Assembly (NCBI GenBank): GCA_015065615.1 | Contig: SVPY01000003.1 | Coordinates: 62,001 to 126,000, forward strand | Source of the DNA: Oscillospiraceae bacterium | GTDB lineage: Bacteria > Bacillota > Clostridia > Oscillospirales > Acutalibacteraceae | Direction: 5' to 3' | DNA: 64,000 bases | Shown: positions 38,077 to 51,107 of the stretch, piece by piece | Layout: every line of letters begins with the position of its first letter | Numbering within the stretch: the stretch's first letter is position 1 | Notes under the pieces: model-generated | Database searches by the model: none | What the model was told of the DNA's origin: nothing | Seen by the model: only the letters and a program-made list of their open reading frames with translations | Position numbers and translations under genes: made by a program

Positions 38077-38110
38077 AAGGCAGGTCCTTTCAGGGCTTGC
38101 CTTTTCTTTT
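38077..38110 (+). terminator. Terminator after the ABC pair
   Basis: AAGGCA..TGCCTTTTCTTTTT. Confidence 0.75.
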
Positions 38111-38133: not shown

Positions 38134-38160
38134 TTGACAAAAAGGATTTTGTGTTATAAG
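38134..38160 (+). promoter_or_regulatory. Promoter for corA leader
   Basis: TTGACA 38134 and TTATAAG near 38154-38160. Confidence 0.55.
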
Positions 38161-38206
38161 CTAAAAGGTGGGGAATAATCCCTAATAAGATAGAGATTCA
38201 AATAAA

Positions 38207-38231
38207 AAGGAGATCTTTGCGAGGGCAAAGA
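38207..38231 (+). promoter_or_regulatory. Split RBS hairpin (GAGG loop) of corA leader ORF
   Basis: AAGGAG then TCTTTGC-GAGG-GCAAAGA; same module precedes der and plsY. Confidence 0.55.
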
Positions 38232-38246
38232 AAAGTCTATAGGACT

Positions 38247-38285
38247 ATGGAACCTTTACCTGAACCTAACGCGACAAGTAAATAG
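38247..38285 (+). CDS. Putative Mg2+-sensing leader peptide MEPLPEPNATSK
   Basis: ATG GAA CCT TTA CCT GAA CCT AAC GCG ACA AGT AAA TAG directly upstream of corA; acidic/proline alternation like MgtL. Confidence 0.6.
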   Translation: MEPLPEPNATSK

Positions 38286-38326
38286 CGGTACGTTTGGGTA
38301 GCTCCTTGCGTACTGCACGAAAGGAG
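38285..38326 (+). promoter_or_regulatory. Mutually exclusive hairpins controlling corA SD
   Basis: GCGGTACGT(38285-38293)/GCGTACTGC(38308-38316) competes with CTCCTT-g-CGT/ACG-a-AAGGAG (38302-38326). Confidence 0.6.
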
Positions 38327-38334
38327 TATTTATT

Positions 38335-39279
38335 ATGATCAGAATCATCAAATCCGAAGCTAATTTAATCGAAGAGCTGGAGCAGATTGAGGCAGGCGCA
38401 TGGATCGCTCTCACTTCACCCTCTCAGGATGAGCTTGAGTGGGTAAGCGAGAATTTAAGCGTTGAAATCGAAGATTTAAAAGCCGCTCTGGACGACAACG
38501 AAAGATCCCATATTGAAATTGAGGATAATTATACCCTTATCCTTGTGGACATTCCAATTATCGAGGAACGAAACGAAAAGCAGTGGTACGGCACCATTCC
38601 TATGGGTATTATCGTGACAAAAGAAAACATTATAACAGTTTGCCTTAATGATACCCCCGTTCTTACGGGTTTAATGAAGGGCAAGGTTAAAAATTTCTAC
38701 ACAGGCTGGAAAACAAGATTCATCCTCCAGATTCTTTACAGAAACGCCGCGCTCTTCCTTCAGTACCTGCGCGGTATTAACAAGAGAACTGAAATTATTG
38801 AAAAAAGGCTTCAGCAATCACCTCAGAATAAGGAGATTATTCAGCTTCTTGAGCTTGAAAAGAGCTTGGTTTACTTTACCACCTCTCTTCGTTCCAATGA
38901 AATGGTGCTCGAAAAGCTTATGAAAATTGAGACTATAAAGAAATATCCCGAGGACACCGAGCTTCTTGAGGACGTTATTATCGAGAATAAGCAGGCTATT
39001 GAGATGGTTCACATCTACAGCGGCATCATAAACAGTATGATGGATGCAGTTTCCTCGGTTATCAACAATAACGTGAACAACGTAATGAAAGTGCTTGCCA
39101 TTATCACTATCGTTCTTTCCGTGCCTACCATGATATTCAGCGCCTACGGTATGAACGTAAACGGGGCAGGTATGCCTTTTGCAAGCGAGCCATGGGGCTT
39201 TATAGCCGTTATAGGTATGTCTATTTTAATGGCGGTTATAGTTGCTATTGTATTCCTTAAATCAAAAATACTTAAATAA
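38335..39279 (+). CDS. corA: CorA family magnesium transporter
   Basis: C-terminal YGMNVNG (GMN motif) between TM segments; CorA soluble domain. Confidence 0.94.
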   Translation: MIRIIKSEANLIEELEQIEAGAWIALTSPSQDELEWVSENLSVEIEDLKAALDDNERSHIEIEDNYTLILVDIPIIEERNEKQWYGTIPMGIIVTKENIITVCLNDTPVLTGLMKGKVKNFYTGWKTRFILQILYRNAALFLQYLRGINKRTEIIEKRLQQSPQNKEIIQLLELEKSLVYFTTSLRSNEMVLEKLMKIETIKKYPEDTELLEDVIIENKQAIEMVHIYSGIINSMMDAVSSVINNNVNNVMKVLAIITIVLSVPTMIFSAYGMNVNGAGMPFASEPWGFIAVIGMSILMAVIVAIVFLKSKILK

Positions 39280-48972: not shown

Positions 48973-48985
48973 AGTATATTATAAA

Positions 48986-49011
48986 AAGGAGAGCCTTTGC
49001 GAGGGCAAGGG
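48986..49011 (+). promoter_or_regulatory. Hairpin-split RBS of der
   Basis: AAGGAG-ag-CCTTTGC-GAGG-GCAAGGG, 12 nt, ATG 49024. Confidence 0.5.
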
Positions 49012-49023
49012 CAGGTAAAAGGA

Positions 49024-50352
49024 ATGAGCAAACCTATTGTAGCTGTTGTGGGCAGACCTAACGTAGGTAAATCCACACTTTTCAATAAGCTTATAGGCCA
49101 GCGCCTTTCTATCGTGGAGGATACTCCCGGTGTAACCAGAGACCGTATTTTCGGTGACTGCGAATGGCAGCAGCGAAAATTCACTTTAGTGGATACAGGC
49201 GGTATCGAGCCTAAAAGTAACGACGTTATTTTATCTCAGATGCGAAATCAGGCACAGCTAGCCATAGACTCAGCGGACGTTATCATAATGGTAACGGATA
49301 TAAGAACCGGTGTTGTAGCTACCGATATGGAAGTTGCAAGTATGCTTTTAAAGAGCCGTGTTCCCGTAATTTTATGCGTAAATAAGTGCGACAGCATCGG
49401 TGAGCCTCCCGTGGAATTCTACGAGTTCTATAATCTGGGTTTAGGCGACCCCGTAGCGGTTTCCTCCGTACACGGTCACGGTACAGGCGATTTGCTTGAA
49501 AGGGTTTTGGAGTACCTTCCCGAAGATAATGAGGAGGAAGAGGATACGGAAAACATCAAGGTTGCTATTATCGGTAAGCCTAACGTAGGTAAATCCTCCC
49601 TTGTTAATAAGGTTTGCGGCGAGCAGAGATGTATTGTTTCCGATATTGCCGGTACCACAAGAGACGCTATTGAGATAACCGTTGAAAATAAACACGGTAC
49701 CTTCACTTTTATTGATACCGCAGGTCTGAGAAGAAAGAACAAGGTAGAAGATAATATTGAAAAGTACAGCAATATCCGCGCTGAAATGGCTGTTGATAAG
49801 GCTGACGTATGCGTAATTATGATAGATGCTACGGTTGGCTTTACTGAGCAGGACAGCAAAGTGGCGGGCATAGCTCACGAAGCGGGCAAAGCTTGTATCG
49901 TAGCTGTAAATAAGTGGGATGCCGTTGAAAAGAACGATAAAACAATGCAGGAAATGCGCGAGAAGCTCGAAAAAGATTTCTCCTTTATGTCCTACGCTCC
50001 CATTATATTTATCTCCGCACAGACAGGTCAGCGCCTTGACCAGCTTTTTGAGACTATAAAAACCGTAGCAAACAATAACTCCATGAGAATCAGCACAGGC
50101 GTTCTGAATGATATTTTAGCTCAGGCTGTTGCAAGAGTTCAGCCTCCTACGGATAAGGGCAAGAGACTTAAAATTTACTATATGACTCAGGCTTCCACAA
50201 AGCCCCCGGCATTCGTATGCTTTGTAAACTCAAAGGAGCTTTTCCATTTCTCTTACCAGCGTTATTTGGAGAACAGAATAAGAGAAGTATTCGGTTTGGT
50301 AGGTACCCCCGTTCACTTTATTATCAGGGAGAAAAATCAGGATAACCCGTAA
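49024..50352 (+). CDS. der: Ribosome biogenesis GTPase Der
   Basis: Two G domains: GRPNVGKSTLFNKLIGQR and GKPNVGKSSLVNKVCGEQR; MSKPIVAVVG start (upstream in-frame TTG at 48997 also possible). Confidence 0.96.
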   Translation: MSKPIVAVVGRPNVGKSTLFNKLIGQRLSIVEDTPGVTRDRIFGDCEWQQRKFTLVDTGGIEPKSNDVILSQMRNQAQLAIDSADVIIMVTDIRTGVVATDMEVASMLLKSRVPVILCVNKCDSIGEPPVEFYEFYNLGLGDPVAVSSVHGHGTGDLLERVLEYLPEDNEEEEDTENIKVAIIGKPNVGKSSLVNKVCGEQRCIVSDIAGTTRDAIEITVENKHGTFTFIDTAGLRRKNKVEDNIEKYSNIRAEMAVDKADVCVIMIDATVGFTEQDSKVAGIAHEAGKACIVAVNKWDAVEKNDKTMQEMREKLEKDFSFMSYAPIIFISAQTGQRLDQLFETIKTVANNNSMRISTGVLNDILAQAVARVQPPTDKGKRLKIYYMTQASTKPPAFVCFVNSKELFHFSYQRYLENRIREVFGLVGTPVHFIIREKNQDNP

Positions 50353-50365
50353 GTTTATCTTTTTT

Positions 50366-50390
50366 GGGAGAGTCCTTGCGAGGGCAAGGA
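50366..50390 (+). promoter_or_regulatory. Hairpin-split RBS of plsY
   Basis: GGGAG-ag-TCCTTGC-GAGG-GCAAGGA, 12 nt, ATG 50403; no SD near ATG. Confidence 0.55.
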
Positions 50391-50402
50391 TAAGAAAAAA
50401 AT

Positions 50403-51107
50403 ATGACATTCTTTTTGAATTCGGTTTTACCGGTAATTTTACTTACAGTCGTGCCTTATTTACTGGGCAGTATAAGCTTTTCGATTATCTTTTCCAAGCT
50501 TTTCGGTAAAGGTGATATAAGAAATTACGGCAGCGGCAATGCAGGCGCCACAAACGTTTTAAGGTCTGTGGGCGCTTTACCTGCGGCTTTAACCTTCCTT
50601 TTCGACTTTTTAAAATGCGCGTTTTCCGTTTATTTGGGCTATATGGCGGCGCACCATTTCTGTGTGATGAATAACTGGGATATTATTATGAGCGAGTGCG
50701 GCAAGTATATTGCAGGTTTTATCTGCATGGTTGGTCATATGCACCCCATATTCTTCGGCTTCAAGGGCGGTAAAGGCGTTACTACCTTGGCTGCAATGGC
50801 TATACTTATCGATATTCGTACAGCCGCAATTTTACTTGCAATATTTATTATTATAGTTGTAACTACCAAATACGTATCACTGGGCTCCTGCGTGGTTTCC
50901 GCGCTTTTCCCCGTTATGACTTTCGTTATTTCCTATTTCTTCGGCTCACTTCAGAGCGGTAGCGATATCACACCTACCTATCTTATTACGGTTACTTTGG
51001 CTGCCGCAGCCATAGGCGGAATTATAGTTTACAAGCACCGCGCCAACATTAAAAGGCTTATAAACGGTACGGAATCAAAATTCTCCGTAGCAAAAAAGGA
51101 TAAGTAA
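50403..51107 (+). CDS. plsY: Glycerol-3-phosphate acyltransferase PlsY
   Basis: GSISFSIIFSKLFGKGDIRNYGSGNAGATNVLRSVG; GFKGGKGVTT. Confidence 0.95.
   Translation: MTFFLNSVLPVILLTVVPYLLGSISFSIIFSKLFGKGDIRNYGSGNAGATNVLRSVGALPAALTFLFDFLKCAFSVYLGYMAAHHFCVMNNWDIIMSECGKYIAGFICMVGHMHPIFFGFKGGKGVTTLAAMAILIDIRTAAILLAIFIIIVVTTKYVSLGSCVVSALFPVMTFVISYFFGSLQSGSDITPTYLITVTLAAAAIGGIIVYKHRANIKRLINGTESKFSVAKKDK

Follow-up and report, generated by a model that had tools for sequence, protein, structure and literature searches.

Translation of a short leader peptide with acidic and proline residues probably controls the magnesium transporter gene corA by attenuation in the bacterium studied here, with the ribosome itself sensing Mg2+, a reading to which we give a probability of roughly 70%. 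The leader lies in a 64,000-nucleotide stretch of genomic DNA (the window) and appears to belong to a widespread group of short acidic/proline leader peptides in the Bacillota (Firmicutes) that is apparently undescribed. Sequence comparison brings out the ORF itself, the conservation of its motif, its association with genes for Mg2+ transporters, alternative RNA pairings and the covariation of one helix, designated 1:2 below.

In the window, the leader ORF (38247-38285) runs on the forward strand, as do its putative promoter, SD, hairpins and pairing segments and corA itself, from an ATG at 38247 to a TAG at 38283-38285, comprising 12 codons that encode MEPLPEPNATSK. The downstream gene (38335-39279) encodes a CorA-type Mg2+ transporter (Pfam PF01544, E=3.8e-55), and its ATG at 38335 stands 88 nt 3' of the leader ATG. 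The ORF, peptide and 88-nt distance given by a first-pass annotation of this DNA match the sequence exactly, and the promoter-like TTGACA that it placed ahead of the ORF is present at 38134-38139, followed by TATAAG at 38155-38160. These putative -35 and -10 boxes, both kept in the congener locus L339, are separated by a 15-nt spacer, shorter than the 16-18 range of the promoter scan. An intrinsic terminator-like hairpin at 38077-38103 belongs to the preceding gene and would separate two transcription units; because TTGACA/TATAAG sits past this hairpin, corA appears to have both a promoter of its own and a leader some 170 nt long.

The best Shine-Dalgarno (SD) sequence of the leader, AAAGGAG at 38206-38212, lies 34 nt ahead of the ATG, and the gap is bridged by two predicted hairpins, TCTTTGC-GAGG-GCAAAGA at 38214-38231, which has 20 genome copies at <=3 mismatches, and the smaller AGTCT-ATA-GGACT at 38234-38246, which abuts the ATG. 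That initiation would depend on hairpins bridging to a remote SD counts against the attenuation model. An in-frame TTG at 38217, situated after a good SD, would lengthen the peptide by 10 residues (MRGQRKVYRT-MEPLPEPNATSK); we rejected it in favour of ATG 38247 because the same-genus relative keeps the ATG ORF and has lost the TTG frame, and because the same SD-hairpin-start module elsewhere in the genome (before groEL and rplI, for example) precedes starts located after the hairpin. That relative (G917, locus L339) is the sole same-genus genome found with corA, and its corA is 92% identical. Its leader reads MEPLPEPNATI followed by a stop, with the codons ATG GAA CCT TTA CCT GAA CCT AAC GCG ACA unchanged to the letter, and the hairpin at its ATG (GTCAA-AA-TTGAC) has changed in sequence and retained its pairs. 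A third genome of the genus (G132), 99% complete, has no CorA match, and given this absence the distribution of corA and its leader within the genus is patchy.

Across the family, an SD-led upstream ORF with the motif M-x-[PSA]-[DE]-P precedes 37 of 57 corA genes (window included, mostly one genome per genus); the expectation from dinucleotide shuffles averages 0.05, and the reverse strand has none. Some members deviate, among them the window itself (MEPLPEP), L004 (MEPDSYPEP) and L002 (MNSQPDP), and roughly ten of the family's corA genes lack a clear leader; that the window peptide carries E2 and E6 and not a tight EPDP counts against the attenuation model. A scan of 150 family genomes with the DNA pattern of the motif, blind to corA, yielded 25 places, 22 of which are corA leaders directly upstream of the gene. 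Searched in 150 family genomes, the leader DNA of the window returned just its own locus and short hairpin-type matches, so that homology of the leaders is visible only via corA.

The motif also extends beyond the family. Two corA leaders from other families of the class (L110 and L111) read MNPDPCGKR, and among 80 named corA loci, which overlap partly with the family set of 57, 49 carry M-x(1,2)-[DE]-P at -50 to -175, including those of Anaerotruncus colihominis DSM 17241, Acetanaerobacterium and Acetobacterium tundrae and, in the Erysipelotrichia, Longicatena and Thomasclavelia. This motif is missing from that interval in all listed corA loci of Coriobacteriia and Geobacillus. A phylum-wide pattern scan of 399 genomes matched 39 of them, mostly by single matches across unrelated families; none of the newly fetched loci (L301-L328) codes for a CorA or MgtE relative, and we take these matches as background and not as leaders. 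The check set beforehand, conservation of the ORF and its E/P pattern in homologous leaders, thus came out positively in the family, the class and the Erysipelotrichia, and also on mgtE genes. Variant corA leaders in other Clostridia (L167, L187, L190, L193, L162 and L178) have acidic-Gly-Pro or similar starts, such as MGDGPYSSSLK followed by a stop, MDEGPSLARK, MDVGPSYRRS, MADDVGRKR and MSADGNWR, which suggests that the motif is broader than MxPDP. A further element, CGAAGTA(G), whose CGA AGT would be translated as Arg-Ser, turns up in many corA leaders (L002, L008, L013, L016, L023, L027, L028, L052 and L056) some 6-14 codons from their start and is kept in nucleotides as well as in peptide.

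Comparison of the leader sequences indicates that they are constrained both as peptide and as RNA. The 81 leaders chosen for M-x-x-[DE]-P have D (71) or E (10) as residue 4 and between them write codon 5 with all four CCN codons; the codons for residues 4-5 lie mostly outside the paired, covarying stem. Across leaders that stem, helix 1:2, joins the leader SD, start and first codons with part of the ORF body. It is paired in 80% of cells, compared with 31-50% when slid, and double-change cells number 51 against 20 in shuffles (0/500). Such strong covariation, in a stem that spans the leader SD and start, and a leader RNA nearly unchanged in the congener would also be expected if the ORF were incidental and selection acted on RNA structure alone, as an uncharacterised Mg2+ riboswitch or a protein site. 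We regard this as very unlikely: start codons interchange between ATG, GTG and TTG, outside the stem the D/E and CCN codons show synonymous or conservative changes only, and the peptide motif is common to mgtE leaders of otherwise different sequence.

Two other explanations accept the peptide and give it a different role. The leader might respond to uncharged tRNA-Pro by amino-acid attenuation, with Mg2+ not a direct signal, as could be argued from the invariance of P5 in the 81 selected leaders, from several leaders with 3-4 Pro codons and from Salmonella mgtP, described as responding to charged tRNA-Pro (PMC8092293). Typical corA leaders, however, have one or two prolines only, and residue 3 is A, S, T or I instead of Pro in 34/81 selected leaders while the acidic residue is kept, a residue that has no role in tRNA-Pro sensing. 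The genes downstream are moreover Mg2+ transporters, not proline genes, and we judge proline sensing unlikely. A conserved short ORF adjoining a membrane transporter gene could alternatively encode a functional micro-protein acting on CorA, as MgtR and MgtS act on their partners. This is highly improbable: the leaders are alike only in their first 5-10 residues, both their length (11 to >40) and their C-terminus differ freely from one to the next, and inspection of the listed peptides by eye shows no hydrophobic segment that is conserved.

A sister type of leader ORF, M-D-x-x-P-(L/G), precedes mgtE, a gene for an Mg2+ transporter unrelated to corA. It was found at 29 of 90 mgtE genes of Clostridia (for example MDPEPLSG, MDSDPLPG, MDSSPLPE and MDAYPGR), a post hoc count in that the regular expression was written after the motif had been read by eye from the data. 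A scan of the class for the pattern MDxxPLP, made without regard to which gene follows, located 13 places, with 7/13 immediately upstream of mgtE; it too was written after the data had been seen and covers partly the same genomes. In another family of the class, the mgtE leader L104 (MSPDPDSKPKG) has the corA-type MSPDP start. The M-box, scanned with its Rfam covariance model, is present in 17/60 mgtE loci, and in six mgtE leaders (L201, L207, L212, L217, L240 and L242) an ORF of MDxxPLP or MDSGP type stands between the M-box and mgtE. By their sequence, leaders with both an M-box and an acidic/proline ORF may equip a single mRNA with two different kinds of Mg2+ sensor. We think it slightly better than an even bet that the ribosome, by way of acidic/proline leaders, serves as an Mg2+ sensor in a general strategy of the Bacillota, used on at least two unrelated transporter genes (MxPDP on corA, MDxxPLP on mgtE), acting on the transporter ribosome-binding site and sometimes stacked behind an M-box.

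The leader RNA of the window folds better than its shuffles (z -3.3) and is predicted to form three helices of similar energy, -11 to -12 kcal/mol each. Segment 1 (38257-38272, within leader codons 4-9) pairs with segment 2 (38285-38300) as helix 1:2. In helix 3:4, the stretch 38301-38311 of segment 3 (38301-38316), which holds the anti-SD GCTCCTT and CGTACTGC, pairs with segment 4 (38317-38327), which contains the corA SD AAAGGAG (38320-38326). These two helices can coexist (OFF), and both are excluded by helix 2:3 (ON), in which 38285-38293 pairs with 38308-38316. Segments 1 and 3 are identical in the congener and segment 2 nearly so. The predicted folds thus reproduce the layout of Salmonella mgtQ, with 1:2 plus 3:4 set against an exclusive 2:3 and the transporter SD in segment 4.

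Beyond the window, all three helices are supported by cross-leader tests, in which pairing within leaders is compared with pairing between leaders and the reversed sequence serves as control, and 1:2 covaries clearly. With non-overlapping segments, z was -1.25 for 1:2 (control -0.17, n=74), -1.46 for 3:4 (control -0.51, n=30) and -1.12/-1.55 for 2:3 (control -0.31, n=30); segment 3 was thereby tested at the level of the class. The same part of segment 3 is contested by segments 2 and 4 in 30/30 leaders; in a region as short as the one searched, this outcome is partly inevitable. Placing a modelled ribosome on codons 1-5 raised the accessibility of the window corA SD from 0.42 to 0.95. Across 41 leaders, modelled occupancy of the first codons gave a mean shift of +0.07, compared with -0.02 in body-shuffled controls (p=0.006), a modest effect with SD accessibility up in 17/41 leaders and down in 9. 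In the free state, hiding of the SD was no stronger than in body-shuffled controls (p=0.19).

The motif, its association with Mg2+ transporter genes and the switch-like RNA lead us to infer that the corA leader senses Mg2+, by ribosome-mediated translational attenuation as follows. Without leader translation, helices 1:2 and 3:4 would form and hide the corA SD. At low Mg2+, ribosomes would pause on or fall off the early acidic and proline codons (E2-P3-L4-P5-E6-P7), and aborting ribosomes would repeatedly occupy segment 1, leaving segments 2 and 3 free; segment 2 would then pair with segment 3, exposing the corA SD and allowing CorA synthesis. With sufficient Mg2+, ribosomes would reach the stop codon at 38283-38285 and cover segment 2, and helix 3:4 would shut off corA. 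Both the Mg2+-dependent destabilisation and the regulatory sign are borrowed from the biochemistry of MgtL and MgtQ: low Mg2+ would cause abortion on MEPLPEP and turn corA on because mgtQ and MgtL (EPDP) behave so. Asp/Glu codons in Salmonella mgtQ have been shown experimentally to lower leader translation, which lets 2:3 form and exposes the mgtB SD (PMC8092293), and the EPDP motif of MgtL leads to ribosome drop-off at low Mg2+ (PMC11282234).

The opposite sign would follow from simple translational coupling, in which leader translation opens 3:4 and feeds ribosomes to corA, so that low Mg2+ turns corA down. In many relatives the leader ends at the anti-SD, with 12-30 nt left to the corA start, and in some it enters corA; where the two ORFs overlap in this way coupling would be possible, which counts against the attenuation model. 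In the window, by contrast, there are 49 nt between the leader stop and corA, and a modelled ribosome at that stop leaves 3:4 formed. Segments 2 and 3 furthermore pair in a leader-specific manner, of which coupling has no need, and transporter expression in E. coli and Salmonella varies inversely with leader translation (PMC11552253). We therefore hold coupling to be fairly unlikely, and attenuation by aborting ribosomes remains our preferred reading.

Several known systems resemble the corA leader in part. Control of mgtA, corA and mgtB by upstream ORFs (uORFs) has been reported in enterobacteria (PMC11552253). Like MgtL, the predicted ORF in the window is short, has an SD of its own and lies in the 5' leader of an Mg2+ transporter gene, with an N-terminal acidic/proline motif (EPDP in MgtL, MxPDP in the corA-leader family, MEPLPEP in the window) and mutually exclusive leader folds. 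The target of MgtL is, however, mgtA, a P-type ATPase gene of Enterobacteria, in place of corA or mgtE in Bacillota, and MgtL acts by Rho-dependent termination, whereas the structure here points to sequestration of the transporter SD as the output. MgtQ is closer in mechanism, sharing an Asp/Glu-bearing leader, the alternation of 1:2 plus 3:4 (SD hidden) with 2:3 (SD free) and a translational output; it is an intergenic 8-codon ORF between mgtC and mgtB in the mgtCBRU operon of Salmonella, unlike the window leader, which lies 5' of corA with its own putative promoter. CorL and the corA RNA motif likewise combine a uORF in the corA 5' region with two alternative structures, yet the motif is restricted to Gammaproteobacteria (PMC6429828), the system is reported only from there and uses Rho, and CorL has few acidic or proline residues (PMC11552253, PMC6429828).

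The M-box (ykoK, RF00380) also provides Mg2+-responsive control of Mg2+ transporters in Bacillota, although as a direct RNA aptamer without an ORF; it is absent from the window, and several mgtE leaders carry both. An M-box with a uORF has been described in mycobacteria (PMC12810186), and an mgtE motif is confined to Thioalkalivibrio (PMC11109978). An Rfam scan of the window leader, in a version that may lack a corA-motif model, returned nothing at the gathering threshold and nothing credible at E<=10. An M-box or other Rfam family in this leader was discarded on that ground, the same scan finding M-boxes at mgtE loci, and the first-pass annotation, which had recognised no M-box in the window, is borne out by the RF00380 covariance model. 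That annotation knew of no described case in a Gram-positive lineage. In the open-access literature we found no description of an acidic/proline corA/mgtE leader family, and on this coverage the novelty of the Bacillota family is provisional.

By analogy, the leader probably makes the ribosome the Mg2+ sensor, as in E. coli and Salmonella, but the transporters differ, and so does the kind of switch. Within the open-access literature covered, Mg2+-sensing leader peptides have been described in enterobacteria only. If the reading is true across Clostridia and Erysipelotrichia, nascent-chain destabilisation would be a phylum-wide way of reading cytoplasmic Mg2+, would suggest how gut anaerobes without a corA M-box could control corA, and would offer about 100 natural leaders whose comparison could pinpoint ribosome-destabilising residues.

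The SD-hairpin-start module of the leader is itself a repeated element, consisting of AAGGAGA, a hairpin GCCTTTGC-GAGG-GCAAAGGC, which also occurs in compensating variants, and, about 5-18 nt further on, a start codon. It occurs in the window at 38206-38247, 48985-49025 and 50365-50405 and at 20 places in the whole genome (G000), and among 60 relatives it was found only in this genus (G000 and G917). The form CTTTGC-GAGG-GCAAAG stands at eight other places in the genome between the SD and the start of an ordinary gene. The genes behind the module, named from their translations, include groEL, rplI, ftsX, a RarA-like ATPase gene and a der-like GTPase gene at 48999, and may number up to 20. Structured SD-to-start spacers on such a scale look unusual.
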